Part shown: positions 11,130 to 25,628 of the stretch, piece by piece
Numbering within the stretch: the stretch's first letter is position 1
How the letters are laid out: each line of letters begins with the position of its first letter
DNA from: Desulfobaculum xiamenense
GTDB taxonomy: Bacteria > Desulfobacterota > Desulfovibrionia > Desulfovibrionales > Desulfovibrionaceae
Direction of reading: 5' to 3'
Assembly: GCF_011927665.1 (NCBI RefSeq)
Contig: NZ_JAATJA010000001.1
Location: 1,407,019 to 1,471,018, forward strand
DNA: 64,000 bases
The notes under the pieces: model-generated
Database searches by the model: none
Told to the model about the DNA's origin: nothing
The model's input: the letters and a program-made list of their open reading frames with translations, nothing else
Program-made: the position numbers and the translations under genes

Positions 11130-12638
11130 ATGTTTCGTGCGTCATTCCGTCATTTTCCGTGCTCCATGTCGATGGCGTTCCACACCGTGGGGATGGTTCT
11201 CGCCGTCTTTCTGCTCTCGCCCCTTTCGACTTCGACCGCACAGGCTGACGCCGCCCCGGCACCATCCGGCCTCGTCTACTGCATTCAGATAGCCGGGCTC
11301 GACAATCCAGACAATGCACGCAGCTTCGAAGCCGCTCTGCGCAGGGAACTCGACGCCCAGACCGCAGGGCTTCTGCGTGTGGACAAGCGAGGCTCCATGC
11401 ACCTGTTCCGCATCGGCAACTTCGCGGACAGGGCCTCGGCCAAGGCCATGCGAGACACACTGGCCGCACGCCATCCCGACGCATACGTCCTACGCATCCG
11501 AGGCACGGTTCCGCCACAAACGGCACCGAACGCGCGCATCGACGAAGTCGCAGCACCCGGCTCCGGCGTCATCGCGGCACCTTCCCATGCCGAAGAAGCG
11601 CCACCTGCCGTAGCGACCGCCGCACAGGACGATCCGCCACCGACCGACGTGGCGACATCCACCGCGACAGCAAATGAAACACAAGCTGCTGACGTCACAC
11701 AGACGCTTTCCGATGCCAATGCATCGTCCACCGCACCACCAGCCAAGCAAGCGGCCGTACTCCACGCCTTCCCCATTCCAGCGCTCGCTGAGGTGACCTC
11801 GCCCCCCGGCCGGGCGACCTCGCAATACAAAAACATCGGCATCGCCGCCGTTCTCGTCGCCATAGCCATCGTCGTGACACTCCGTAGACGCATGCGCTCG
11901 CGTCGGGTGCCCCCACAGCCACAGCCCCAGCCGCAGGACTCGGAGCCTCTGGCACAAACGGACAACGCCGACGCCCCATCGGGCTTGCCTCGACTACCTC
12001 CCGATCTCGAACGGCGTCTGCGCGCGCACGAACGCGAGCTCTCCATGGTCGAAGCCAACCTGCTCGCGGCGAACCGCAGCGCCGCCACCATCTACGTGAC
12101 CAGCTGCTTCCGTGGCGAGGGCAAGACGACCACGGCCATTCACACTGCCTGGGGCCTCGCCAGCGAGGGCGGCAACCGCGTTCTGCTGGTTGACTGGAAC
12201 ACCGGTGCGCCCATCCTGCACACCATGTTCAGCATCGACGAGGCTCCCGGCCTGCTCCAGTTCCTGAGCGATCGACAAAGCCTGCATGAATGCCTTCGCG
12301 AAACAGCCTATCCGGGCCTGTGGCTCATGCCCTACGGCACGCAGGCGTGCGAACGCTGCGAAACGTTTCGACGCGACGTCATTTCGCAGCACATCGCCAC
12401 TATGCGCGAGAGCTTCGACTACGTCGTCTTCGACGGCCACTCGCTGATCGGCACGTCCACCGCCATCCTCGCGGACCGCTTCGACGGCGTGCTGCTCGCC
12501 GTGGAGGCGGAACGGACCAAGTGGGAAGTCGTCCAAGATTCCTCCGAAAAAATCCGCAATATGGGCGGCAGCATCATCGGCATGGTCCTGAACCAGCGCA
12601 GATTCTACATCCCCAAAATCCTGTACGGAAAGATATGA
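11130..12638 (+). CDS. SPOR-like domain fused to tyrosine-kinase-type ATPase (EPS)
   Basis: 502 residues. A signal or anchor segment (~1-40) precedes a SPOR-like module (VYCIQIAG ... MHLFRIGNFA ... AYVLRI, ~50-125). A Pro/Ala-rich linker follows, then a helix (~232-250) and a CpsD/BY-kinase ATPase domain (~290-500). The Walker A is RGEGKTTT (~328-335). Walker A' is unusual (LLVDWNTG, Asp-Trp-Asn instead of Asp-x-Asp), and Walker B is VVFDG. The C-terminus has only two Tyr, not a Tyr cluster. It probably drives the export and copolymerase complex of the exopolysaccharide system. It overlaps the next gene by four bases. Confidence 0.82.
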   Translation: MFRASFRHFPCSMSMAFHTVGMVLAVFLLSPLSTSTAQADAAPAPSGLVYCIQIAGLDNPDNARSFEAALRRELDAQTAGLLRVDKRGSMHLFRIGNFADRASAKAMRDTLAARHPDAYVLRIRGTVPPQTAPNARIDEVAAPGSGVIAAPSHAEEAPPAVATAAQDDPPPTDVATSTATANETQAADVTQTLSDANASSTAPPAKQAAVLHAFPIPALAEVTSPPGRATSQYKNIGIAAVLVAIAIVVTLRRRMRSRRVPPQPQPQPQDSEPLAQTDNADAPSGLPRLPPDLERRLRAHERELSMVEANLLAANRSAATIYVTSCFRGEGKTTTAIHTAWGLASEGGNRVLLVDWNTGAPILHTMFSIDEAPGLLQFLSDRQSLHECLRETAYPGLWLMPYGTQACERCETFRRDVISQHIATMRESFDYVVFDGHSLIGTSTAILADRFDGVLLAVEAERTKWEVVQDSSEKIRNMGGSIIGMVLNQRRFYIPKILYGKI

Positions 12639-13675
12639 TGCGCACGTCACTACTCATTTTCCTTGCCCTCACGCTTGTCACGGTCGGATGCACGCGTGGC
12701 GACCTGCCCATCGCACCGGACGAGGAGCGCACCATGTCGGCCACGACCTTCGCCGCGGACGCCAAGGACTATCCCTCCGCGCTCGGACTGTTTCCGGACT
12801 ACCGCCTCGTGCCCGGTGACGTGCTGGACGTGCTGTTCCAAATCCGCACATGGCAAAGCAAGGAAGAGTTCCGCCTCGCCGTGGACGACACGGTAACCGT
12901 AAAGTTCGTCCATGCGCCGGAGCTCAACGAGACGCAGAACATCCAGCCCGACGGACGCATCTCACTGCCCTACCTCGGCGAGGTGCGCATCGCGGGGATG
13001 TCCGTCGGCGAGGTCACCTCGATGCTTCGGGAGCGCTACGCATCCATCCTGCGCGCCCCGGAAATCTACGTGGTGGTTCCGGAATACCGCTCACGCATCA
13101 AGGAACTGAAGAACGACCTGCACACCGCCTCGCGCGGCCTCTCCCGGCTGGTCACCGTCCGCCCGGACGGCTTCTGCACCTTCCCCCTGGCTGGCGACAT
13201 ATTCGTTGCCGGGCGCACCATTCCACAGATCAACGAAGAACTGGACGCCATCTACGAGGACTACCTGCCCGGCCTACACGTGGACCTATTCCTCGAACGC
13301 CACTCCGGTGCCATGGTCTACGTGATGGGACAGGTGCGCACGGGCGGGGCATTCAGCATCGCCAAGCCAGTGACGCTGACGCAGGCGCTGGCGCTGGCCG
13401 GAGGGCACAACAACGAGGCGGACCTGACGAGCGTCCTCGTCTTCCGACGGCAGGGCCAGCAATTCGGCGCGCGGCGGCTCGATCTGGAGAAGACACTCGG
13501 CCTCGACGAGGACGGCACACTCTTCTACCTCCAGCCCGACGACATCGTGTACATCCCCCGGCGCGGCAGGGCGCAGTGGGCGGAGGTCATGCGCGAGGTC
13601 TCGGAAATCATCTTCTTCCGCGGCTGGAGCTCGGGACTCGACGGCCCCCTCTTCGTCAACCCGATCATCAAGTAG
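12635..13675 (+). CDS. Polysaccharide export outer-membrane lipoprotein (Wza-like)
   Basis: 346 residues. A lipoprotein-type signal ends at Cys (TVTVGC or similar; VTVGCTRG, the -3 residue is Thr). A Poly_export/PES domain (YRLVPGDVLDVLF ... ISLPYLGEVRIAGMSVGEV) and SLBB-type repeats (VYVMGQVRTGGAFSI ... ALALAGG) follow. The protein forms the outer-membrane exit for capsule or exopolysaccharide in Wza systems. The start ATG overlaps the previous stop (ATGATG), with GGAAAG upstream; the second ATG at 12638 is an alternative. Confidence 0.92.
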   Translation: MMRTSLLIFLALTLVTVGCTRGDLPIAPDEERTMSATTFAADAKDYPSALGLFPDYRLVPGDVLDVLFQIRTWQSKEEFRLAVDDTVTVKFVHAPELNETQNIQPDGRISLPYLGEVRIAGMSVGEVTSMLRERYASILRAPEIYVVVPEYRSRIKELKNDLHTASRGLSRLVTVRPDGFCTFPLAGDIFVAGRTIPQINEELDAIYEDYLPGLHVDLFLERHSGAMVYVMGQVRTGGAFSIAKPVTLTQALALAGGHNNEADLTSVLVFRRQGQQFGARRLDLEKTLGLDEDGTLFYLQPDDIVYIPRRGRAQWAEVMREVSEIIFFRGWSSGLDGPLFVNPIIK

Positions 13676-13685
13676 GGCACAGGGC

Positions 13686-15077
13686 ATGACGCGACAGACA
13701 GCCATCAAAACCGAAGACTACATTCGCGAGGTAGTCACCATCTTCTTCGCCCAGAAGAGGATCATCCAGCGGACGTTTCTGATCATCGCGGTCTTTGCCG
13801 TGGCCGTGGCGCTGTTCTGGCCGCCGACCTACGCCGTGCGCGGCGAAATACTCATCAAGGGCAAAAAGCTGGAGAAAAGCCCGGAAACGCTCGAAAACAC
13901 CCAGATACGCATGTTCGAGCTGACGCGGCAGGATCTCGCATCCGAAATCGAGATCGTCGAGTCCAACGACGTCATCGAAAACACCATCCGCCTGCTACGG
14001 GAAAAGCAGCTCCTGTACACAGATGTGGACCTCACAGCGGACACCATGCCCGCTCTGGTCAAGAACATCCGCTCGCGCCTCGAAGCGTCCATCAAGCAGG
14101 ACTCGCACATCATCGAGACGACATTCACCTCCCGCGATCCGAACGAGGCCCACGTGGTACTCCGGCACCTGCTCATCGAATATGTGAACTGGCGCAACAG
14201 CGTATTCAACCCCGGACAGGCCGTCACCTTCTACGAAACGCAGGTGGAGCGCTTCTCGCAGGCCCTACGTAAAAACGAAGACGCGCTCATCGCCCTTGCT
14301 GAACAGTACATGTCCCCCGATCCCGCCAAGGAGATCGACAACAACCTCGCCATCAAGAAGGATTTGGAGCAGAGCCTCGACCGCGAACGCACGGAATGGA
14401 CCAAGAAGGAACTCTACGTGGACTTTCTGGAGGATGCCCTCGACTCGCCGGACATGCGCCTGTTCTCCTCCATCGACAACCAGTCCATCACCCTGCTCGG
14501 CGAGAAGCTCCAAAGCCTCGTCATCGAGCGCGGCAACATCCTGCGCGTCTACCACGAATCGAGCGACAGGGTCCGCGGCGTGGACGAACAGATCGCCAAG
14601 ACCTACGAGACGCTGCGCTCCGAGGTGGCCGCCTACGCGGAAACCATGCGCAACGAGGCGGACATCCTCGGCGACACCATCGCCGCCATGGAAACCCGCC
14701 TGCGCGATCTTTCGGCCCGCAACGTGGAACTGCACACCTACCTCGTGGAGTCGCAGCGCATCCATCGCGAGATAGACCTCATCCGCCACTCCTACGAGAC
14801 CTTCTCCAAACGCCTTGAGGAAGCGCGCATACAGACCTCGTCCGACGCCAACGCCCTGTTCTCCATCAGCATCATCAGCTGGCCGTTCGTCTCGTGGGAG
14901 CCGGTGTTTCCGCAGCCGCGCCTCATCATCCCGCTGGGGCTGTTCGTGGCCATGCTGACGGGGCTGAGCCTCGGCTTCCTCCGCGAGTACTTCGACCACA
15001 CCTTCAAGAAACCCGAGGACGGTCCGAAGTTCGCGGGCCTGACCACGCTCTTCACCATTCCCCGCTGGAAGGGCTGA
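13686..15077 (+). CDS. GumC/Wzz-like polysaccharide chain-length regulator
   Basis: 463 residues, an inner-membrane polysaccharide co-polymerase. The Wzz N-terminal domain includes a helix at ~25-45, a long periplasmic coiled-coil region (~150-390) and a C-terminal helix (~418-438) after the PQPRLIIPLG segment. No ATPase domain is attached, so kinase or ATPase activity would come from the first gene of the operon. It lies ten bases after the export lipoprotein gene, with an AGGGCA ribosome site. Confidence 0.9.
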   Translation: MTRQTAIKTEDYIREVVTIFFAQKRIIQRTFLIIAVFAVAVALFWPPTYAVRGEILIKGKKLEKSPETLENTQIRMFELTRQDLASEIEIVESNDVIENTIRLLREKQLLYTDVDLTADTMPALVKNIRSRLEASIKQDSHIIETTFTSRDPNEAHVVLRHLLIEYVNWRNSVFNPGQAVTFYETQVERFSQALRKNEDALIALAEQYMSPDPAKEIDNNLAIKKDLEQSLDRERTEWTKKELYVDFLEDALDSPDMRLFSSIDNQSITLLGEKLQSLVIERGNILRVYHESSDRVRGVDEQIAKTYETLRSEVAAYAETMRNEADILGDTIAAMETRLRDLSARNVELHTYLVESQRIHREIDLIRHSYETFSKRLEEARIQTSSDANALFSISIISWPFVSWEPVFPQPRLIIPLGLFVAMLTGLSLGFLREYFDHTFKKPEDGPKFAGLTTLFTIPRWKG

Positions 15078-15094
15078 CCTTCGGAGAAGCACCC

Positions 15095-16186
15095 ATGAGC
15101 TGGATCGAAGACACAACGCCAACATGCGACGAATCGCAGGTCACCTGCCCGAAGTACGGCATCTTCCAGGGCGGATACTTCGGCTACACCCCGTGGTCCT
15201 TCGTGACCATCACCCTGTTCAACGCCGTGGTGTCCTTCGCGCTCATCATCATCGGCCTGCCGCTGTTCCTGATCCTCGGCGCGGCGGTGAAGCTGCGCGA
15301 CGGCGGCCCCGTGCTCTACAAGGGCGTCCGTCTCGGCCTGTCCAAGAACCCGTTCTACATGTACAAATTCCGCACACTGCCCGTGGGCTCGCAAAAGCGC
15401 ATCGGCGGCGAAGTGCTCTCGCACAAGCACATGACCCTGCCCCCCTTCTCGCGCTTCCTGCGCGACACGCGGCTCGACGAGCTGCCCCAGCTCTTCAACA
15501 TCCTGCGCGGCGACATGGACTTCATCGGCCCGCGCCCCATACGCCCAGAGGTCTACGAGCAGCAGGCCCGCGACATCCGCGACTTCGACATGCGCTTCGC
15601 CGTGCGTCCGGGCCTCATCGGCTACGCGCAGCTCTTCACCCCGCATTCAACGCCCAAGCGCCTGCGCGCGCACATCGACAACAAGTTCGTTCTGCGCAGA
15701 CGCAGCCGCATCTGGGACATCTTCGTCATCCTCTACACCATTTCGGTGGTCGCGCGGGACGTGGCGCTCAAGGGCGGGCGGCTCGTCTGGCGCGAGGTGT
15801 TCGCCCGCCGCCTGCTGCGCCTGTACCGCGAATCGCGCGCGCTCGAACGCGCACACCCAAGCGCGGCACGGGTGCGGGTGGTCGCGAATCCGCATGTGCA
15901 TGGACCGGGCTTCACAGGCGAACTCCGCGACATTAACGAGGTCTGCTTCCGCATGCATTCCAGCGACGAACTCGACGGCGACGGTCCCTTCGTCTTCCGC
16001 ATCGAGCGCCACATCCAGCGCGGACGCAGGAAGCGCTACAAGCGCGCCCTCGTAACCGGGACGGTCCAGTCGCGCCCAGCCCCGACAGGCGGCGCAAGGC
16101 ATGCCTACGTCATCCGCTACGAGGCCGCGACGCCCCTCAACGCCTACCTGCTCGACCAGTACTTTCTGGGCAAGAGCATGGTCTGA
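15095..16186 (+). CDS. Undecaprenyl-phosphate sugar transferase with C-terminal PilZ-like extension
   Basis: 363 residues from the ATG at 15095 (CGGAGAAG upstream). A membrane helix (~30-58) precedes a bacterial sugar transferase domain with G-P-V-L-Y-K-G-V-R, YKFRTL, RDTRLDELPQLFNIL and DFIGPRPIR motifs. It probably initiates repeat-unit assembly by loading a sugar-1-phosphate on undecaprenyl phosphate. The C-terminal ~100 residues (after ~255) are not part of the family. RVRVV ... GELRDINEVCFRM ... ALVTGTV resembles a PilZ fold, though the R-x-x-x-R and D-x-S-x-x-G signatures are imperfect. Confidence 0.85.
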   Translation: MSWIEDTTPTCDESQVTCPKYGIFQGGYFGYTPWSFVTITLFNAVVSFALIIIGLPLFLILGAAVKLRDGGPVLYKGVRLGLSKNPFYMYKFRTLPVGSQKRIGGEVLSHKHMTLPPFSRFLRDTRLDELPQLFNILRGDMDFIGPRPIRPEVYEQQARDIRDFDMRFAVRPGLIGYAQLFTPHSTPKRLRAHIDNKFVLRRRSRIWDIFVILYTISVVARDVALKGGRLVWREVFARRLLRLYRESRALERAHPSAARVRVVANPHVHGPGFTGELRDINEVCFRMHSSDELDGDGPFVFRIERHIQRGRRKRYKRALVTGTVQSRPAPTGGARHAYVIRYEAATPLNAYLLDQYFLGKSMV

Positions 16187-16206
16187 TCATCGGCAGGAAC
16201 ACCGCC

Positions 16207-17604
16207 ATGACGCGAGCACAGCCCACGCCGATCAATCCGGTCTTCGCCATTACGGCGGGGGGCGTCGTCGCGGCGACCATAGCAGCGCTCGCCTCCCCGA
16301 CCCCGGCGCTGGCCCTGCTGCCGGGGCTGGCCGTGCTCATGCTCCTCGCACTGGCGAAGCGCCCGCACTGGGGCTATTACGCCATCATCTGGCTCATCCC
16401 CTTCGGTGCCTATCGCGAGCTTCCGGGACCGCTCGGATTCGTAAAAATCCACTGGCTGCTGGCATTCTGCCTCATCGCCTTCGTCATCCTACGGGCACTG
16501 GCGCAGCGCCGTCTTCCGGATGCGACGCACGCGCGACTGTGGGGCCCATTCACCCTGCTCATGGTCATAAGCGCCATTTCGGCGGCGCTCTCGCCCTACC
16601 CGCACCTCTCGTGGCGCAACGTGGCGCTATTCGTCGTGGCAGCCATGTACATGGGACTGACCATGGTCCACGTGGACCGGACGGGATACGTGCGCGTCCT
16701 ACCGCAGGTGCTCCTGTGGAGCGTCACGGTCGGCTCCTGCCTTGCGGCGCTGGGCTTCTTCTTCGACATCCCGCTCTTCGCGGAGAAGGTGGGCGGAGAC
16801 TTCAAGCGCGGGCTGGGCACCGCTCCGGACCCCAATAACATGGCGCTCATGATCATTTTCACCATGCCCTTTCTGGCGCACTGGTTCTTCACCACGCGCA
16901 GGAAGCTCGTGCGTGTGCTGGTGCCTGGCCTCATGGGCGTGAACGCCCTTGGCATGGTGACCACCTATTCCCGAGGTGGGGCGCTCCTCATGGCGCTGAC
17001 CATCGTCGCCATCGCCATACAGCACCGCGAGAACTTCGCGCCCCGCCATGTGGGGCTGGCGCTGGCGGGGCTCGCCATCGCCACAGCAACAACGCTGACC
17101 ATTGTTCCGGCCTCGTACTGGGAACGCCAACAGTCCCTCGTGACCGCGGAGGACCTGTCCATCAAGCGCCGCGCGTCGTACCTCATCGTCGCGTGGGACG
17201 CCTTTCGCCAGCGCCCCCTCACCGGTTGGGGGCCGGGCACCTTCCGCCAACTCTACGCAGAATCGCCACAGGCGCAGCAATACGTCCGCCCCGGCAGGTC
17301 GAAGCTCCGCCCGGCCCACAACACCTATGTGGAGATGCTCGTGGGGACGGGACTCATCGGCATGGCCGTCTACCTGCACATCCTCGCCCGCACCATGCTC
17401 GACCTGCGACGCGCCAGACGCCTCTTCGCCGCATCGGGCGACACGCAAGCCGCCAGAATCACCAGCACCTACATCGTGTCCTTCGGCGCACTGCTGCTCT
17501 TCCTGCTCATGTTCAGCGACGAATACCACAAATATCTGCTGCTCGCGCTGGCCCTCTCGCAGGTGGCGAAACGCTTCGCACAGGAAAGGGAGGAATCGCC
17601 ATGA
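16207..17604 (+). CDS. O-antigen ligase/polymerase family protein (Wzy-like)
   Basis: 465 residues with about eleven hydrophobic segments and a large periplasmic loop near ~290-370 containing the GWGPGTF and NTYVEMLVGTGLIG signatures of the Wzy_C/WaaL family. In a Wza/Wzx cluster with no lipid A core genes, the likely role is polymerisation of the lipid-linked repeat unit. It sits 20 bases after the sugar transferase and overlaps the next gene by four bases (ATGA). Confidence 0.88.
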   Translation: MTRAQPTPINPVFAITAGGVVAATIAALASPTPALALLPGLAVLMLLALAKRPHWGYYAIIWLIPFGAYRELPGPLGFVKIHWLLAFCLIAFVILRALAQRRLPDATHARLWGPFTLLMVISAISAALSPYPHLSWRNVALFVVAAMYMGLTMVHVDRTGYVRVLPQVLLWSVTVGSCLAALGFFFDIPLFAEKVGGDFKRGLGTAPDPNNMALMIIFTMPFLAHWFFTTRRKLVRVLVPGLMGVNALGMVTTYSRGGALLMALTIVAIAIQHRENFAPRHVGLALAGLAIATATTLTIVPASYWERQQSLVTAEDLSIKRRASYLIVAWDAFRQRPLTGWGPGTFRQLYAESPQAQQYVRPGRSKLRPAHNTYVEMLVGTGLIGMAVYLHILARTMLDLRRARRLFAASGDTQAARITSTYIVSFGALLLFLLMFSDEYHKYLLLALALSQVAKRFAQEREESP

Positions 17605-20090
17605 CCCTCGCATGGATCGTCTTCGCGCTATGCGTTATGGGACTTGCGGCCCTCTTCGTCCTGTATCCCGTCCTGCTGACCCTGCGGATTTCCTTCGTCA
17701 GGCGCGGCCAGCCACAGCAGGAACAGCAGACGCAGCCTCCGACGGTGACGGTCATCGTCGCCGCGCGAAACGCCGCGCCCCTCGTGGGGGACAAGATTGC
17801 CAACACGCTCGGGCTGGACTACCCGGCGGACCGGCTCTCGCTCATCATCGTCTCGGACGGATCGCTGGACGGCACGTTCGCCGTAGCGCGGGCCGCCGCG
17901 GACGAGCGGACCACAGTCATCGAGGTTCCCGAGCATCGGGGCAAGATTCACGCGCTCAACCTCGCCGTTCGCGAGGCCCGAAGCGACGTGCTCGTGTTCA
18001 GCGACGTGGACGCCATACTGGAGCGTGACGCGCTGCTGTGGCTGGTCGCCCCACTCGCGGACGACGCAATCGGCGGCGTGTGCGGACGGCGCGTCATCGG
18101 CCGCGACGACGTGCGCCTCGTCCTCGCGCAGGAACGCTACTTCCACCTCGACAGCCTCATAAAGCGGCTGGAAAGCCGGACAGGGAGCCTGACCTCCAAC
18201 GACGGCAAGCTTTACGCCGTCCGCCGCGAACTCTTCACCCCCATCCCCGAGGCCGTCACCGACGACCTCTACGTCGCGCTCAGCGTGGTGGAGGCAGGTC
18301 GCCGCTTCGTCTACGAACCTGCAGCCATCGCCACGGTTCGCGTCCCCTCGCGCACGGCTCCCCACGAATTGCGACGCAGGCGGCGCATCGTCGGCCAGAG
18401 TCTGCGCGGCGTGCTCCTGCGGCCGCATCTGCTTCTGCCGACGCACTACGGCATGTTCGCGATGGGCCTATTCATCAACAAGATTCTTCGCCGGATGATG
18501 CCCTTCCTGCTGGCAGGGCTGTTCGCGTCGAGCATTCCCCTTGCCGCCGAATCGGCATGGGTCGCGGTACTGCTGGCCGCGCAGACGGCCTGCTATCTGC
18601 TCGGCGCGCTGTGGCCATTCCTGCGCAGGGCGCAAGGTATTGCGCATGCCCTCAACCGGCTCAGCCAGACCTGCTTCTACGTCATGCTCGGAAATCTGGG
18701 GATGACGCTTGGCGCATGGGATTTCCTATGCGGACGCAGCGCCGGGCGCTGGGAACCGGAAAAGGACGATGCACTCTGCGCGGACACGGCGGAATCATCA
18801 TCGCCGACCATCGCCTACGTCATGTCGCGCTTCCCCAAGATCACCGAGACCTTCATCCTGTACGAACTACTGGAACTGGAACGACGCGGCATGCGCGTGC
18901 TCGTCTACCCGCTCATCCTGCACGAGGAGCCGAAACGTCACCCCGAGGTCGACACGATCATGCCCCGCGTGCGCACGGAACCGTTTCTCTCCGGTCGCGT
19001 CATCGCCGCCAACGTGGCACTGCTCACGGAGCACCCGCTGCGCTACCTACGGGCAGCGGCCGAGGCCCTCGGCGGCACCATGGGCAACGCCAACCATTTC
19101 CTGCGCACCCTCATCCTGTTTCCGAAAATCGTCTGGATGGCGCGGGACATGGCGCTGTGCGGCATCCGCCACGTGCATGCCCACTTCGCCACGCACCCGG
19201 CGCTTGCGGCCCTCGTCATCAAGCGCCTTGCGGGCATCGGGTACTCCATCACCGCCCACGCCCACGACATTCAGATCACCACCCGCATGCTCGATCGCAA
19301 ATTCGAGGAAGCGGCCTTTGCCGTAACCATCTCGGATTTCAACCGCTCGCTGCTCGCGAACATCGTCGGCCCGGAGGCGACATCACGCATCCACGTGATA
19401 CGATGCGGCATCGATCCGCAGACCTTCATCCCCCGCGAGCATCCGGACGTTTCCCCGGACGCCGCGAAGGACGCCCCAGTGAACCTCCTGTGCGTGGCAT
19501 CATACAAGGATATGAAGGGACACGCCCACCTCGTGGAGGCCTGCCGCCTCCTTGCCGTACGGGGCGTCCCCTTCGTATGCAGGCTGGTGGGAGACGGCCC
19601 GCTACGCACGGACGTAGCGCGGCGCATCCGGCAGGCGGATCTCGAACGCGAGGTGCTCATGCTCGGCCCGCTGCCCCGCCCACGCGTGGCGCAGCTCATG
19701 CGCGAGGCGGACATCGCGGTGCTGGCCAGCGTACGCGGGGCGCGCGGCGACATGGAGGGCATTCCCGTCTTCCTCATGGAAGCCATGGCCTGCGCGCTGC
19801 CCGTCGTCTCGACGCGCCTGTCGGGCATTCCGGAACTCGTCGAGCACGGCGAGACGGGCCTGCTGGTCCCCCCCGCCGATCCCATCGCCCTCGCATGGGC
19901 ACTGGCGGAACTCTCACGGGCCTCCTCGGAGCGCATCCGAATGGGCATGGCCGGTCGAACAAAGGTGCTGCGGGACTACGACCTCGCACGCAACACGGGC
20001 CGCCTCGCGCAGCTGCTCACCGCACATGCGGATAGGCTCGTATTCCCCGCCACCGACATCTCGCAGACAGCACGGGAAGTGCCGGAATGA
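17601..20090 (+). CDS. Bifunctional GT2-GT4 glycosyltransferase fusion
   Basis: 829 residues. After an N-terminal helix (~4-27) comes a GT2 domain (~45-290) with VIVAARN, SDGSLDGT, the D-x-D-like FSDVDA and TDDLYVALSV. C-terminal membrane helices (~295-385) follow, as in processive GT2 enzymes. A second, complete GT4 domain (~400-829) carries SRFPKITETFI, HAHFATHPAL, VASYKDMKGH and the catalytic-site E-G-I-P-V-F-L-M-E-A-M-A. The start is the ATG overlapping the previous stop; the open frame further upstream is antecedent noise. Two transferases in one chain suggest two successive sugar additions. Confidence 0.88.
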   Translation: MTLAWIVFALCVMGLAALFVLYPVLLTLRISFVRRGQPQQEQQTQPPTVTVIVAARNAAPLVGDKIANTLGLDYPADRLSLIIVSDGSLDGTFAVARAAADERTTVIEVPEHRGKIHALNLAVREARSDVLVFSDVDAILERDALLWLVAPLADDAIGGVCGRRVIGRDDVRLVLAQERYFHLDSLIKRLESRTGSLTSNDGKLYAVRRELFTPIPEAVTDDLYVALSVVEAGRRFVYEPAAIATVRVPSRTAPHELRRRRRIVGQSLRGVLLRPHLLLPTHYGMFAMGLFINKILRRMMPFLLAGLFASSIPLAAESAWVAVLLAAQTACYLLGALWPFLRRAQGIAHALNRLSQTCFYVMLGNLGMTLGAWDFLCGRSAGRWEPEKDDALCADTAESSSPTIAYVMSRFPKITETFILYELLELERRGMRVLVYPLILHEEPKRHPEVDTIMPRVRTEPFLSGRVIAANVALLTEHPLRYLRAAAEALGGTMGNANHFLRTLILFPKIVWMARDMALCGIRHVHAHFATHPALAALVIKRLAGIGYSITAHAHDIQITTRMLDRKFEEAAFAVTISDFNRSLLANIVGPEATSRIHVIRCGIDPQTFIPREHPDVSPDAAKDAPVNLLCVASYKDMKGHAHLVEACRLLAVRGVPFVCRLVGDGPLRTDVARRIRQADLEREVLMLGPLPRPRVAQLMREADIAVLASVRGARGDMEGIPVFLMEAMACALPVVSTRLSGIPELVEHGETGLLVPPADPIALAWALAELSRASSERIRMGMAGRTKVLRDYDLARNTGRLAQLLTAHADRLVFPATDISQTAREVPE

Positions 20091-21595
20091 GCGCCACACC
20101 GCACGCCGGACGAACCATCGCCGAATACGCGTTGAGCAACGTATTCCGGCAGGGTCTCGGCATCGTAAGCGCCGTGGTGCGCCCCATGCTGCTCTCGCCG
20201 GAACTCTACGGCCTGTGGAACCTGCTCAAGACCATCCCGCCGTATGCGTCCTTCGCGCATCTGGGCGCACGCCCGGCCGCACGCTACCGCATTCCTTACA
20301 ATGCGGGCGGCGGTGCCGACGCGGAAAATACCCGCATAGAGGACACCATCTTCGTCGGCTCGCTCCTGACGAACCTGCCCATCGTCATCGGCGCGTCGGC
20401 ATGGGCCTTCATCGGCGAATCGACCCCCGAAGCCCGCTGGGGCATGCTGACCGTGGCCGCATGGATACTGCTCAACTGGTACCACGAGCACCTGCTGACC
20501 CTCCAGAAGGCGCATCAGGGATTTCGAGCCATCTCCGCGGCCAACTACGTCATCTCGCTGGCCATGTTCTGCCTGCTGCCGCTCATCCTCGTCATGTCCA
20601 TCTACGGACTCTACGCGTCCATGCTGCTGGCCACAGCGGCGGGCACGCTCATCCTGCGACGGGACCTGCGGCGCTCGCAGCGGCCCCGGTTCGACTTTCG
20701 GCTGTACGCGGACCTCGTACGCCACGGCCTGCCCATCATGCTCTTCACGCTCACGGTGCTCGCCGCCCGCACCTGCGACCGCTTCCTCATCGCCTCGCTC
20801 ATCGGCACGCGGGAGCTGGGATACTACGGCATCGCCACCATGATCCTGACCTTCATCATGAACATCCCCACGGCCACGCGCGAGGTCATGGAGCCGCAAC
20901 TCATGCGCGACCTGCACGTCGCCGACGAGGACACAGCCCTGCGCGACTACCTCTTCCGCCCGCTGTTCACCACAGCCTACGCCATGCCGCTCATCCTCGC
21001 GCCCGTGTTCACGCTGGCACCGACGGCGGTGCGCCTGCTTTTGCCCCAGTACGTGCCAGGAATTCCTAGTGTCCACATCCTCGCTGCGGGGAGCTTCTTC
21101 CTCGGGCTCATCTACATCACGCGGGGCATCGTGGTGGCCCGTGGCTGGCAGACCTCCGCCGCCATTGTTGGAGGCTGCGCCGTGGCGCTGAACATCGCCC
21201 TCAGCGCTGGACTCGTCCGCGCAGGGTTCGGCATCGAAGGCGTGGCCGTCGGCGCATCGGTGGGCTACGTCCTGTTCTTCTGGGGCATCTGCCGCCTCAT
21301 GCACACGCGAAGCAACGGGCACATCCGTGGCTGGACACGGACCATGATCGCCACGACCATCCCCTTCGTGGTGATGGTCGCCAGCGCTGCCTGCGTCATC
21401 GCGCTCATGGACGCGAGCGGACTTCCCGCCCTCGTCGCCCCGGTCCTTGGCCTGTGCGTATACGGGGCCGTCAACGTGGGCACAGTCATGGTCGCACGTC
21501 GCCTGTATCCCGAACTCTCGGACTTCACCATCCGCGCCCTTCTCGGGCGAGGCGAAAAGGAAAAGGTGCGGCATGATCATCAACGCCTGCGCTGA
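20087..21595 (+). CDS. Polysaccharide flippase (Wzx/MviN-like)
   Basis: 502 residues with 12-14 hydrophobic segments, including the family-like N-terminal YALSNVFRQGLGIVSAVVRP. It belongs to the MOP exporter superfamily and probably flips the lipid-linked repeat unit to the periplasm for the Wzy-like polymerase. It starts in an ATGA overlap with the glycosyltransferase and runs 23 bases into the next gene. Confidence 0.87.
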   Translation: MSATPHAGRTIAEYALSNVFRQGLGIVSAVVRPMLLSPELYGLWNLLKTIPPYASFAHLGARPAARYRIPYNAGGGADAENTRIEDTIFVGSLLTNLPIVIGASAWAFIGESTPEARWGMLTVAAWILLNWYHEHLLTLQKAHQGFRAISAANYVISLAMFCLLPLILVMSIYGLYASMLLATAAGTLILRRDLRRSQRPRFDFRLYADLVRHGLPIMLFTLTVLAARTCDRFLIASLIGTRELGYYGIATMILTFIMNIPTATREVMEPQLMRDLHVADEDTALRDYLFRPLFTTAYAMPLILAPVFTLAPTAVRLLLPQYVPGIPSVHILAAGSFFLGLIYITRGIVVARGWQTSAAIVGGCAVALNIALSAGLVRAGFGIEGVAVGASVGYVLFFWGICRLMHTRSNGHIRGWTRTMIATTIPFVVMVASAACVIALMDASGLPALVAPVLGLCVYGAVNVGTVMVARRLYPELSDFTIRALLGRGEKEKVRHDHQRLR

Positions 21596-22703
21596 CGACC
21601 TCTGCCTCGACTTCCACGGCATCGTCACCGTCCGCGCGGCTGGCAGCACGCCCGACGTCCGCAAGGCGCTCAAACGCGCATACGCCCCATTCCTGCGCGA
21701 ACCGCTCCAGTGCGCGGAGTCCATCCGCATCCGTCCCTTCGTCTCGCAGGAGCTTCCGCCGTCGGCCTTCGCCATTCCCAAGGCACAGGACCATTTCTTC
21801 GCAATCACCCACGGCAGCGACGCGCTGGTGGTCTTCCCGCGCTACGGACGCCCCGATGTCGTCATCCGCCTTTCGGACCCCATGGAAATCCTTCATGCAA
21901 ACCGGCCGGGCTGCGCCTCCCGCGTGCTAGACGCGCTGTACATGACCATCCAGCTTGCGCTCCTGCCCCGGGGCGGGACGCTGTTCAAGGGCGCGGCAAC
22001 GCTTCGCGACGGACAATGCGCCGTACTCACCGGCGTCTCCGGCGCGGGCAAGACGTCGCTCCTCCTCGGGCTTCTGCGCGACGGCTGGGATTACCTCTCG
22101 GACAACACCTTCATCCTGCATGACGGCGTGGCGCATCTTTTCCGCAGCTACGCGGTGTACAACATCCACCACCTCACCCACATGCCGTGGGTCTTCGAGC
22201 ACGCGGCTGCGCAGGCGGTGAACGTGCCGCTACGCCGCCTGCGCTCGCTGCTGCACGGCCTGCTCCTGCGGTGCATGCCGCCCGCCATCACCCGCAGCCA
22301 CAAGGTCCGACGCGTCACGGACCCCTACCTCACGGCAGAACCGCATCAGCTCTTTCCAGACTGCAAGATACACCAACGCGCCCGCCCCTCGCTGTGGGTC
22401 ATCCTCTCCCACGCGGACCACTACGCCTTCAGGCCGCTCGACCGGGAGGAAGCCATCGTCCGCATGGAGGCCATACAGGCGCTGACCCATCCCGACCGCG
22501 AGGCGCTGACCCATCAGCTCGGGCTACTCGGCAGACGACGCGAGGCCGGGTGCGCCCCTGTGCTTCCCGCCAATCTCACCGGGGAATTCCGCTTGGCCGA
22601 GTTGCCGCGAAACGTCCCCATTCGCGAACTCCACGCCCGCATCGGAAACGACATCGCCACCGTCCTACACGCGCATCCCGCACCGGAGGCCACCACGCCA
22701 TGA
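21573..22703 (+). CDS. HPrK-like P-loop protein in EPS operon
   Basis: 376 residues. The Walker A GVSGAGKTS (~154-162), then L-L-R-D-G-W-D-Y-L-S-D-N-T-F-I-L, follows the layout of HPr-kinase/phosphorylase-related ATPases (P-loop, then an S-D-D/N segment). No HPr or PTS genes are nearby. HPrK-like proteins occur in exopolysaccharide and sulfated-polymer clusters, where their substrate is not known. The N-terminal ~150 residues are unlike HPrK. Translation is coupled to the flippase by a 23-base overlap and to the next GT2 by four bases. Confidence 0.75.
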   Translation: MIINACADDLCLDFHGIVTVRAAGSTPDVRKALKRAYAPFLREPLQCAESIRIRPFVSQELPPSAFAIPKAQDHFFAITHGSDALVVFPRYGRPDVVIRLSDPMEILHANRPGCASRVLDALYMTIQLALLPRGGTLFKGAATLRDGQCAVLTGVSGAGKTSLLLGLLRDGWDYLSDNTFILHDGVAHLFRSYAVYNIHHLTHMPWVFEHAAAQAVNVPLRRLRSLLHGLLLRCMPPAITRSHKVRRVTDPYLTAEPHQLFPDCKIHQRARPSLWVILSHADHYAFRPLDREEAIVRMEAIQALTHPDREALTHQLGLLGRRREAGCAPVLPANLTGEFRLAELPRNVPIRELHARIGNDIATVLHAHPAPEATTP

Positions 22704-23653
22704 AGAGCGCGAGCATCGTCATCCCCACCTACAACCGCCCGGCGGAACTGGAGGCATGCCTGCGCTCCATCCTCGGGCAGAGCGTCGCTCCGCTCGAAGT
22801 CATCGTGGTGGACGACGGCAATCTTGCGCAGGTTCCCCTCGCGCCCGATTTTGAAACGCGGGGCATCCGGCTCGTCCTGCACCGCAAGGACCGGCCCGGC
22901 CTCACGGAGTCCCGCAATGTCGGCGCGACGCTGGCGCGGGGCGATGTGATCCTCTACCTCGACGACGACACCGTGCTCTTCGCGGATTACGTGGAGCAGC
23001 TCCTCGCCGTGTACGAGCACCGCGACGTCGGCGGCGTGGGCGGCATCATCGACAATCCCAAACCGATGCGCCTGCCGCACCACATCCGCTACCTCTACGA
23101 CCTCGTCTTCCTCAACCGGGGCCTACGCGAGGGGCGCGTGCTGCCGTCCGGGTTCTGCACGGACTTCGGCACCACATGGTTTCCCGTGCGCGAAACGCGC
23201 GAGGCGGATTTCGTAGACGGCGGGGTCAGTTCCTTCCGGCGCGAAATATTCGCGGACATGCGCTTCACCGAGCGCTACCGCGAGTTCGGCCTCGGCGAGG
23301 ACAAGGACTTCTCCATCCGCGTGGCTCGCCGGTACGGCCTCGCCGTGACGCCCAACGCCCGCCTGCTGCATCACGAATCGCCGAAGATGCGCCCGGACAA
23401 GCGGCTGTGGGGCCGCAAATTCGTTCTGGGGCGGTACCTCTTCTTCCGCGATCATGTTAGGACGAAATGGTGGAGCTGGCTCGCCTTCGCATGGGCCCTC
23501 GCCGGATACCTGCTGGCGCGGACCATCATCGCGGCGCTGTCCCTGCGGCGCGATGAATTCCGCCGCGTGGCCGGAATACTCGGCGCAGCGCGTGACATCG
23601 CGCTCGGGCGCATCAGCCTTTCCAAAGCCGACAACAGGGAGGACGGAGCATGA
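22700..23653 (+). CDS. Glycosyltransferase family 2
   Basis: 317 residues. The GT-A fold is marked by SIVIPTYNRPAELEACLRSI, VVDDGN, YLDDDT (D-x-D) and GLGEDKDFSIRVARR, with a hydrophobic helix at ~257-280. It transfers a sugar from a nucleotide donor to the growing repeat unit at the cytoplasmic face. It starts within an ATGA overlap, and its stop overlaps the next start. Confidence 0.9.
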   Translation: MKSASIVIPTYNRPAELEACLRSILGQSVAPLEVIVVDDGNLAQVPLAPDFETRGIRLVLHRKDRPGLTESRNVGATLARGDVILYLDDDTVLFADYVEQLLAVYEHRDVGGVGGIIDNPKPMRLPHHIRYLYDLVFLNRGLREGRVLPSGFCTDFGTTWFPVRETREADFVDGGVSSFRREIFADMRFTERYREFGLGEDKDFSIRVARRYGLAVTPNARLLHHESPKMRPDKRLWGRKFVLGRYLFFRDHVRTKWWSWLAFAWALAGYLLARTIIAALSLRRDEFRRVAGILGAARDIALGRISLSKADNREDGA

Positions 23654-24867
23654 GCATCCCGCGCATCGTCATGACCATCGCGCTCGCCCTCGCCTGCGCC
23701 ATGCCCGCCATCGCGCAGGAACGCGACGAGGTAGTGCCCTACTCGGCCGACAGCCCATGGAACCTGCCCATAGGTCCCACCCCCGAATACGACCCGAACA
23801 GCGAGGTCTTCACACAAGCGTTGAGCGGCGTGTTCGGCATCGACCCCACGCGCTTCACCATGCCGGTATATGTCGTCTCCGCAGACACGCCACGGCGCAG
23901 CATCCGCCTGTCCGGCGTCTATTCGGAGGTCTCGCGCGACGGACGCATGCTCATTAAGCGCAAGGGGGAACCGGTCAGCGTACCGCTGCCGTCCGATGCA
24001 GAACCCGCCGCCGGAAGCGACGCGCAGATCATCGTCTGGAACCCGGACACGGGCGAGGAATGGGGATTTTGGCGGGTGAAGCGCAATGGCGAGGACTACG
24101 AAGCCGTCAACGGCTACAGTTACAACACGAACTGGAACGGCGTGTGCCCCTTTGGCTTCCTGAGCCGAGGCGCGGGCACGCCCTATCTGGTGGGACTGGT
24201 GCGACGCTTTGAAATCGAACGCGGGCGCATCGCCCACGCCATCGCCCTCGGGGTGAACTACCCAAGCCGCCTGTACGTCTACCCCGCCACCAAGAGCGAT
24301 GGAAAGGGCCTGCCGCCCTCGTTGCCCTCGGGGGCGCGCCTGCAACTCGATCCCACACTCACGGACGCGGACTTCGAGCGCTGGGGACTGGACGAACCGG
24401 GAAAAATCATCGCGCGCGCATTGCAGGAATTCGGGATGATCGTCATCGACTCCAGCGGGCACCCCAAGCTCTACGCCGAATACGAGGGAACTGCGCACTG
24501 GAACGGCCTCGTCCACAAGGACACCGTCCGCGCCATCCCCTACTCGGCCTTCAGGGTGCTCAAGCTTTCCGCACCGTCGTCCCCGCCCCCGCCCACGAAT
24601 CTCGCCGCAACAACCGACGCGACCAGCGTCAGCCTGACGTGGGATTCGTCGGTCTCCGCCACGCGCTATCGCATCCTGCGCCGCGCGCCGGGCGATAGGG
24701 ACTACACACCGCTCGACGAATGGGTCACGAATACGAGCTACACGGATTCCACGGTGCACCACGGCCTGAAATACGCCTATGTCGTGCAGGCCATGAGCCA
24801 CAACGGCGCAAGCCGCACCTCGCGCCGCGTGCGGGTGATCGTCGGCGAAGGGGCCGACGCGCCATGA
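23650..24867 (+). CDS. Secreted protein with C-terminal FnIII domain
   Basis: 405 residues with a signal peptide (~1-22, IAQE cleavage region). A large N-terminal domain (~30-310) has Trp/Asn-rich motifs (SADSPWNLPIG, TNWNGVCPFGF, GTAHWNGLVHKD). A fibronectin type III module (~315-400, PPPTNLAATT ... SVSLTWDSS) follows. I do not recognise the N-terminal family. Position in the operon and the FnIII module suggest a polysaccharide-binding or -processing protein, possibly a lyase or hydrolase, but no catalytic residues can be named. Confidence 0.72.
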   Translation: MSIPRIVMTIALALACAMPAIAQERDEVVPYSADSPWNLPIGPTPEYDPNSEVFTQALSGVFGIDPTRFTMPVYVVSADTPRRSIRLSGVYSEVSRDGRMLIKRKGEPVSVPLPSDAEPAAGSDAQIIVWNPDTGEEWGFWRVKRNGEDYEAVNGYSYNTNWNGVCPFGFLSRGAGTPYLVGLVRRFEIERGRIAHAIALGVNYPSRLYVYPATKSDGKGLPPSLPSGARLQLDPTLTDADFERWGLDEPGKIIARALQEFGMIVIDSSGHPKLYAEYEGTAHWNGLVHKDTVRAIPYSAFRVLKLSAPSSPPPPTNLAATTDATSVSLTWDSSVSATRYRILRRAPGDRDYTPLDEWVTNTSYTDSTVHHGLKYAYVVQAMSHNGASRTSRRVRVIVGEGADAP

Positions 24868-25628
24868 CCGGAAGGCAAATCCTGAACACGAGGACAACGC
24901 GTCGCTGCGCGATTTGGGCGCTGCTAGGCTTCGCGCTGGCCGTCGCGGCGTGGACGCTCGTCGCGCCGACCGCCGCGCACGCCAACGAGGCGGTCTATTC
25001 CATCCAGATCGCCGGGTACAAATCCCGCGAGAACGCGCTGAAGCAATACGCCATCCTTTCGCGGACCCTCGACGCCACAGCCTTCGCACAATTGCGCATC
25101 GAGACGTCCGGCAACCTGCACATGCTCCGCCTCGGCAGCTTCGCCACACGCGCCGAGGCGACAGACACGCTCAAGCGCCTCGCAGGGGCGTTGCCGGGTG
25201 CCTATGTCATCCACACCACGGTGAACCCTGCAGGGATCATCCTCCCGAAGCCCGATGCCGCTCCCAACGCCGGTCAGGGCCGCGCCGCCCGAGCCGAACC
25301 GAAACCCGCAACGTCGGCGGCCACGCCGACAGACCGCCCAACGAACGGTACAACCCCATCAGCGCCAGCCCCCAAGACGCGAAAGCTCATCGATCAACCC
25401 CACGCCGCACGGCCCGCCGCACAGAGGCAACCGCCCGCCGCCGTCGCGCCGCAAGCGCCAGAGCAGGACACAGCCTCCCGGCCGGAACGAATCGAAACGC
25501 CCCGAACGGTACGGCCCGCCACACAGAGCGCACCGTCGTCCCGATGGAATCCCGGCAATCCGCTGCTCATCCTCCTCGGCTTCGGGGCGGCCATGGCGGG
25601 CGGACTACTCGTCCACAGACTGCGCTAG
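24864..25628 (+). CDS. SPOR-domain membrane protein, last EPS gene
   Basis: 254 residues. An N-terminal helix (~15-38) precedes a SPOR-like domain (VYSIQIAGYKSRENALKQYA ... LHMLRLGSFATRAEA ... AYVIHT, ~45-120), then a Pro/Ala-rich linker and a C-terminal hydrophobic segment (~230-250, NPLLILLGFGAAMAGG). The module is clearly related to that of the first gene in the operon (shared V-Y-x-I-Q-I-A-G, L-H/H-L-x-R-x-G-x-F-A, A-Y-V). It probably binds peptidoglycan or the export complex. It overlaps the previous gene by four bases. Confidence 0.78.
   Translation: MTGRQILNTRTTRRCAIWALLGFALAVAAWTLVAPTAAHANEAVYSIQIAGYKSRENALKQYAILSRTLDATAFAQLRIETSGNLHMLRLGSFATRAEATDTLKRLAGALPGAYVIHTTVNPAGIILPKPDAAPNAGQGRAARAEPKPATSAATPTDRPTNGTTPSAPAPKTRKLIDQPHAARPAAQRQPPAAVAPQAPEQDTASRPERIETPRTVRPATQSAPSSRWNPGNPLLILLGFGAAMAGGLLVHRLR

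Follow-up and report, generated by a model that had tools for sequence, protein, structure and literature searches.

SPOR domains on an ATPase and a partner protein of an exopolysaccharide operon in Desulfobaculum xiamenense and related loci

Introduction

How Gram-negative bacteria couple the synthesis of envelope polymers to peptidoglycan is, to our knowledge, an open question. A locus of Desulfobaculum xiamenense (contig NZ_JAATJA010000001.1, positions 1,407,019 to 1,471,018; this stretch of 64,000 nucleotides is the window) poses it in a specific form: why should an exopolysaccharide (EPS) operon begin and end with genes for SPOR-domain membrane proteins? The operon (11130-25628, + strand) consists of 11 tightly packed or overlapping genes with a SPOR-encoding open reading frame (ORF) at either end; in gene 1 the SPOR domain shares a protein with an ATPase resembling bacterial tyrosine kinases (BY-kinases), and in gene 11 it is accompanied by a transmembrane (TM) segment. 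The reading developed here, for which we put the chances at about even, is that wall-binding modules have repeatedly been grafted onto the core of the export machine and would place it at denuded peptidoglycan. With a wall-binding domain built into the pair formed by a polysaccharide co-polymerase (PCP) and a kinase, point mutations could be used to test the coupling.

Two SPOR domains at the ends of the operon

The proteins at the two ends and their SPOR domains are as follows.

11130..12638, + strand: gene 1, SPOR-TM-ATPase protein of 502 amino acids (aa) (Pfam, NCBIfam, hydropathy threshold, sequence)
11277..11495, + strand: SPOR domain of gene 1, residues 50-122 (Pfam 37.7 bits; model pLDDT 94.2; Z 6.8-7.8 against five solved SPOR chains)
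24864..25628, + strand: gene 11, SPOR-TM protein of 254 aa with the gene 1 layout minus the ATPase (Pfam; TM by eye from the sequence)
24993..25211, + strand: SPOR domain of gene 11, residues 44-116 (Pfam 43.1 bits)

The original prediction, made from the letters of the DNA, had the operon bracketed by two SPOR-domain membrane proteins, and this is borne out at both ends: a PF05036 search places the two domains above its cut-off of 21 bits (E 2.6e-9 for gene 1 and 5.2e-11 for gene 11). The motifs that it quoted as shared are present, if slightly loosely worded (VYCIQIAG and VYSIQIAG; HLFRIGNFA and HMLRLGSFA; AYV). The whole genome (3.64 Mb, 8 contigs) has five SPOR matches over the cut-off, and by our own arithmetic the chance of two of the five falling in one given 14.5-kb stretch is ~2e-4. 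The remaining three, with names read from sequence, are RlpA, a TPR-SPOR protein that has pilus-type genes as neighbours, and an FtsN-like protein whose gene adjoins an arginyl-tRNA synthetase-like gene.

The structure of the gene 1 SPOR module was predicted from an alignment that included 10 other modules. The model has the element order E-H-(short H)-E-E-H-E, which is the beta-alpha-beta-beta-alpha-beta order of the ribonucleoprotein (RNP)-like fold, and VIA-align matches it to CwlC (Z 7.8), RlpA (7.5, apo form and glycan complex), DedD (7.0) and DamX (6.8), with root-mean-square deviations of 2.3-3.0 over 71-77 residues for the five solved SPOR chains. Among the best 50 rows of that search the first rank is held by 6ozd, an exported protein not labelled SPOR (Z 9.2), and the other non-SPOR rows reach at most 5.0. 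The first four Foldseek matches of the model are all SPOR domains (E 1.1e-3 to 4.5e-3).

The denuded-glycan site of RlpA consists of Q270 in beta1 together with R302, R309 and R311, according to the excerpted text of the RlpA study (PMC6895207). Q53 of gene 1 and Q48 of gene 11 occupy position 8 of the Pfam profile, the beta1 Gln, and both domains have an Arg in beta2 and in beta3, possible counterparts of R302, R309 or R311. In an alignment of 11 modules (A4, which leaves out those of G081, G292 and G293; G numbers denote genomes and L numbers loci) the beta1 Gln is present in 10/11, the beta2 Arg in 10/11 and the beta3 Arg in 11/11.

Kinship of the two end proteins

The full-length products of genes 1 and 11 match by BLASTP at E 4e-16 (36% identity over 166 aa, including the low-complexity linker), and their SPOR modules are 40% identical, compared with next-best identities among 13 modules of 24% for the gene 1 module and 28% for that of gene 11. 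In a tree of 28 modules and 83 columns, with a background of 9 of 45 SPORs of our own choosing, the two pair at 89/73, below the mark for a firm branch. The proposal that the end proteins are paralogues thus has moderate support, and the best explanation for gene 11, judged from its sequence, is probably that it is a copy of the SPOR-TM part of gene 1 without the ATPase. A search of 58 other relatives gave no orthologue of gene 11; what matched was the SPOR-ATPase in G003 and an RlpA-like protein in G014. SPOR duplication within a lineage is seen elsewhere too: in G008 a single protein carries two SPORs, which pair at 96/89, and in G856 two of the three SPORs pair at 96/96. In the window genome the second copy is a separate gene.

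A PEP-CTERM-like sorting tail was considered for the C-terminus of gene 11, prompted by its TM and short basic tail and by XrtA-associated NCBIfam matches. It was rejected because the genome has no exosortase match (PF09721, 0 matches at E up to 1), so that the locus also lacks this mark of an XrtA/PEP-CTERM system.

A BY-kinase-like ATPase behind the SPOR domain

11988..12635, + strand: BY-kinase-like ATPase domain of gene 1 with Walker A GEGKT, degenerate Walker A' and C-terminal RRFYIPKILYG

The predicted order of gene 1 is a signal peptide, a periplasmic SPOR domain, an Ala/Pro-rich linker, one TM helix and a cytoplasmic BY-kinase-like ATPase. The ATPase matches Pfam AAA_31 (32.0 bits, cut-off 27) and scores 86.3 bits with TIGR01007, short of the cut-off of 108 for this curated BY-kinase model; its best match among solved structures is VpsO (E 2e-19). 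Walker A is intact, with the G, K and T of GEGKT invariant in 13/13 aligned orthologues. BY-kinases have a Walker A' of the DxD type and end in a C-terminal Tyr cluster, and the domain is called BY-kinase-like here because the second Asp of Walker A' is missing and there is no such cluster. The orthologues end instead in R-x-x-Y-I-P-x-x-x-Y, in which the R, the P and the last Tyr are invariant (13/13) and the other positions nearly so. The ending R-x-x-[YFH]-[ILV]-P-x-x-x-Y (window 12597-12635) occurs at many loci, in stand-alone, SPOR-fused and PCP-fused BY-kinase-like proteins.

SPOR domains on orthologous ATPases

Within the family, 69/288 genomes have a match at E 1e-25 or better, and the top-scoring 11 (E 4.4e-68 or better) were taken as orthologues. 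A SPOR-type ectodomain is present on nine of these (the window genome, G003, G161, G008, G032, G081, G274, G292 and G293), and a TM between SPOR and ATPase passes the hydropathy threshold in seven of the nine, and inspection by eye shows one in G003 and in G293. The grounds for assigning the domain differ among members. Those of the window genome, G008 and G274 exceed the Pfam cut-off of 21, and that of G003 is borderline (20.8, or 23.9 in the genome search). G161 scores only 12.5 bits and is assigned by 69% identity to G003; G032 is assigned by a sub-threshold Pfam score of 16.8 bits (no match in the other scan) and a home-made SPOR model. In G081, G292 and G293 (P0008, P0010, P0011) no SPOR was found by Pfam, and the assignment derives from profile scores of 48.1, 40.2 and 37.4, compared with at most 17.3 in 78 negatives; G293 is cut by a contig end.

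A related-locus scan with the single protein P0001 gave 188 pattern matches and no relative. An alignment-based scan gave 19 loci. Four of them, L067-L070, are generic BY-kinases or could not be used, and the weak relative L066 was left out of the 35-locus set. Across this set a SPOR-type ectodomain was found by any method on 10/35 orthologous ATPases (L060 being cut at the contig start). A search of the window's own phylum matched 16/395 genomes, and 13 matches scoring at most 188 bits were taken as non-orthologous and moved to the control described below.

SPOR or SH3 domains on ATPases and PCPs of other lineages

Orthologues of the ATPase occur in 15/395 genomes of the phylum to which L053 belongs, labelled Nitrospirota in the ATPase tree. 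The frame is at most 289 aa in 13/15 of these, and therefore the ATPase stands alone there; the N-terminal part of the G938 protein is long but of a different kind. In G856 the ATPase belongs to a protein of 1202 aa that also has a TM and three SPORs (55.4 bits). In the order of this genome 18/176 genomes have an orthologue and the G856 frame is the one long frame with a SPOR, the newly found G1108, G1110, G1111 and G1113 lying outside the analysis. In the phylum of L058 one of 194 genomes matched, that of L058 itself. Other N-terminal additions to orthologous ATPases are a TM2 domain (50.4 bits) at L062 4585-5484, on a contig titled Flavobacteriales, and a long part made of repeats and a zinc-ribbon-like stretch at L198 9094-11097.

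Wall-binding domains also occur on the PCP, which could be inspected in 27 loci, in two of these as no more than a fragment. The PCPs of L053 and L205 have an extra TM and a C-terminal SPOR (Pfam, 30.9 and 28.2 bits), and that of L199 has a SPOR-type domain with a profile score of 45.3 that was not found by Pfam. Two others carry an added TM and a C-terminal SH3_3 domain (cut-off 27).

L203, 9229-11385: SH3-bearing PCP (30.3 bits)
L204, 9610-11673: SH3-bearing PCP (37.9 bits)

The profile did not find a SPOR on the PCP tails of L055, L061 and L201 (13.4, 10.7 and 9.2, compared with a top negative of 17.3 among 78). This profile likewise misses the SPOR of the L053 PCP (13.6), which Pfam does find, and the FtsN-like protein of the window genome (14.8), and L205 at 17.0 lies at noise; it recognises the EPS type of SPOR only, and a miss is therefore no proof of absence.

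In the SPOR tree a branch at 98/92 sets the 13 modules of the ATPases and gene 11, together with the L199 PCP tail, apart from RlpA, FtsN-like, TPR and background SPORs, and a separate clade of EPS-type SPORs is thus supported, as far as sequence goes. The L053 and L205 PCP SPORs form a firm pair (97/86) that lies with the background modules and is nearest to the FtsN pair (96/59, not firm), whereas that of L199 falls among the ATPase-type SPORs; the tree therefore calls for at least two SPOR recruitments. The ATPase tree is poorly resolved, with 14/35 inner branches firm. It needs at least two changes for the SPOR-ATPase and does not decide between one fusion and several; L199 was labelled in it by eye, before its profile test.

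A possible wall-directed export machine and its alternatives

The reading of grafted wall-binding modules can be put as a series of steps. A periplasmic SPOR and one TM helix would have been added to a BY-kinase-like ATPase, giving gene 1. The SPOR domains would bind glycan strands stripped of peptides, hence at division or remodelling sites, and this binding would anchor and concentrate the complex of ATPase, PCP and outer-membrane polysaccharide export protein (OPX) where amidases have denuded the wall, at the septum or at other sites of remodelling. Occupancy of the SPOR may alter the cytoplasmic ATPase and thereby gate polymerisation. The SPOR-TM partner encoded by gene 11 could add another point of contact with the wall, or it could compete with gene 1 for its binding sites.

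The original prediction also tied the export machine to the cell wall or to division sites. A tie to the wall gains comparative support from modules on ATPases of two phyla and from SPOR and SH3 domains on PCPs; these do not separate septal targeting from general anchoring. The occurrence of SPOR on the ATPase or the PCP in two phyla suggests that the bacteria may direct export of the sugar coat according to the state of their cell wall. A more specific proposal, which is tentative and somewhat doubtful, is that the SPOR-TM-ATPase is a one-protein receptor for wall state, in which denuded glycan outside would switch the ATPase so that EPS polymerisation and export start there, several lineages having reached the same coupling by SPOR or SH3 grafts on the ATPase or the PCP.

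A number of observations weigh against the reading of grafted wall-binding modules, some concerning the SPOR domain, some the ATPase and some their distribution. As to the domain, Foldseek gave no match for the gene 1 model at E 0.001 or better, and a profile of the SPOR modules found none of the solved structures at a significant level (best CwlC, E 0.013). The glycan-contacting Gln is lost in three of the nine family SPOR-ATPases (G032, G081 and G292; in G293 the position lies beyond the contig end), so that some SPORs of the family may not bind denuded glycan. This loss, together with the separation of EPS-type SPORs from the RlpA and FtsN types at 98/92, is what would be expected if the EPS-type SPOR had left peptidoglycan altogether and now bound the nascent or exported polysaccharide, with feedback to the ATPase. 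We hold such a change of ligand to be improbable: both window copies and most modules of A4 still have the Gln together with an Arg in beta2 and in beta3, and the background-side SPORs on the L053 and L205 PCPs and the SH3 domains of L203 and L204 point to the wall.

As to the ATPase, Walker A' reads D-W-N in the window and its second Asp is missing in 13/13 orthologues, and in place of a Tyr cluster the window protein has only Y-x5-Y (YIPKILY). Kinase activity is accordingly not assured on these motifs, whose loss weakens a reading in terms of kinase signalling. A motif-degenerate ATPase fits a plainer role for the SPOR, that of holding the trans-envelope complex in the wall with neither septal targeting nor signalling, and so does the finding of SPOR or SH3 on either the ATPase or the PCP, as expected under selection for tethering alone. 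We regard this plain anchor as unlikely, since the SPOR of model systems, in the excerpted text of PMC6895207, is specific for septum-enriched peptide-free glycan, which would be odd for a uniform anchor.

As to distribution, the ATPase stands alone in two of the 11 family orthologues (G016 and G244) and 14/15 Nitrospirota orthologues have no SPOR; the module is therefore dispensable to export. The stand-alone SPOR-TM gene was found only in the window genome and in none of 57 stretches scanned. A sparse distribution with many SPOR-less orthologues and low identity among modules is also consistent with neutral accretion, in which common SPOR modules would have drifted onto these proteins with no shared role. 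It is further in keeping with this that in four control loci (L134, L138, L140 and L142) a separate neighbouring ExeA-like ATPase carries a SPOR, and therefore a SPOR close to an EPS kinase is also found outside this group. Separate ExeA-like AAA ATPases with a TM, a LysM-like stretch (by eye) and a C-terminal SPOR also lie near distant EPS kinases at L211, L213, L215 and L220 (32.6 bits in L211, the one of the four scanned with Pfam).

Neutral accretion nevertheless appears very unlikely to us, given the repeated placement of the modules on two core partners and their duplication within lineages (the window genome, G008 and G856). The control bears on it as well: the home-made SPOR model finds the domain in 6/35 orthologues and in 0/57 distinct BY-kinase ORFs outside the group, a zero that is weaker than it looks because the model misses 4/10 of the group's SPOR-ATPases and that covers the ATPase ORF only, 17/57 ORFs running off the locus start so that a SPOR beyond would escape. 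The comparison is descriptive, as its sequences share ancestry and the searches started from four members that carry a SPOR; L053, G856 and G1009 (L205) were found by way of kinase-domain patterns or profiles.

Other genes of the operon and genome

The nine genes between the two SPOR ORFs are as follows.

12635..13675, + strand: OPX (Poly_export 104.5 bits, SLBB domains)
13686..15077, + strand: PCP, a Wzz-type chain-length protein without fused kinase (Wzz 27.8 bits)
15095..16186, + strand: phosphoglycosyl transferase (Bac_transf, 144.5 bits), approximate start
16207..17604, + strand: O-antigen ligase or Wzy-like polymerase (Wzy_C 71.5 bits)
17601..20090, + strand: fusion of GT2 and GT4 glycosyltransferases (profile match), approximate start
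20087..21595, + strand: Wzx flippase (Polysacc_synt_3 49.8 bits)
21573..22703, + strand: HprK-related P-loop protein (TIGR04355 and TIGR04352 far below cut-off; weak AAA matches), approximate start
22700..23653, + strand: GT2 glycosyltransferase (83.7 bits)
23650..24867, + strand: secreted protein with a C-terminal fibronectin type III (FnIII) domain (fn3 23.1 bits, cut-off 25)

The OPX gene has an in-frame ATG at 12635, in overlap with the gene 1 stop codon. The OPX, PCP, phosphoglycosyl transferase, Wzy-like and Wzx genes occur together by Pfam, the set of a Wzx/Wzy-dependent EPS system, and judged by its gene content the locus is a Wzx/Wzy-type exopolysaccharide operon. A scan of the locus for promoters and terminators gave counts near chance.

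The HprK-related protein is also encoded in the orthologous loci L038, L055, L056 and L062. The GT2 and GT4 parts that form one ORF in the window are separate genes in L038, L040 and L041. The FnIII-tailed protein has a conserved core of ~280 aa and homologues, some of them tail-less, in eight other EPS loci (L038, L040, L055, L056, L058, L061, L062 and L063); with the whole protein as query, the fold-search matches listed for its AlphaFold model (pLDDT 75.5) fall on the FnIII tail. A second BY-kinase of the genome (L047 6628-9927), of Wzc-like length (712 aa), adjoins its own OPX-like gene, and no SPOR match was found there. In G001, the other genome of this genus that was searched, neither SPOR gene has a match at the thresholds applied, and therefore not every member of the genus has the locus.

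Comparison with known systems

No published report joining a SPOR domain with a tyrosine kinase or BY-kinase was found, preprints and most subscription journals being outside the scope of the search, and the literature that joins a SPOR domain with polysaccharide export or exopolysaccharide looks unrelated, as judged by its listing. We therefore judge the locus to combine known parts in an arrangement for which no published report was found.

The SPOR domains described here resemble those of FtsN, DamX, DedD, RlpA and CwlC in Pfam family, fold, glycan-contacting Gln and basic residues. They differ in forming a separate sequence group and in their position: the usual order is an N-terminal TM, a linker and then the SPOR, according to the text available of PMC6895207, whereas here the SPOR is N-terminal and is followed by a TM and a cytoplasmic ATPase. 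The P-loop ATPase domain is shared with VpsO, BceF, CapB and Wzc, from which gene 1 departs in its degenerate Walker A', its lack of a Tyr cluster, its R-x-x-Y-I-P-x-x-x-Y end and its SPOR-TM in place of a PCP fusion. The best NCBIfam models for the ATPase, OPX, PCP and Wzy-like proteins are those associated with XrtA, all below cut-off, but unlike XrtA/PEP-CTERM EPS loci this one lies in a genome with no exosortase match.

Two known systems connect capsule with the wall or its synthesis. CapAB and PknB of Staphylococcus aureus link capsule with the precursors of peptidoglycan, PknB being described in the excerpted account as a Ser/Thr kinase able to sense lipid II (PMC6441080); here the corresponding parts would be a SPOR module and a BY-kinase-type ATPase. 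The other is CpsC/CpsD of Streptococcus pneumoniae, likewise a PCP and BY-kinase partner of a capsule machine. Direction to the septum is a feature of that pair: divisome proteins recruit CpsC and its complex, and when CpsC is relocated to the pole, capsule synthesis goes with it (excerpts of PMC10233549 and PMC4574921). The SPOR and SH3 modules described here are thus found on the same two kinds of protein that determine the site of capsule synthesis in S. pneumoniae, a precedent for the wall-directed reading. Those excerpts mention divisome proteins as recruiters and no wall-binding domain on CpsC or CpsD, whereas in the SPOR-TM-ATPase the targeting module would be built in.

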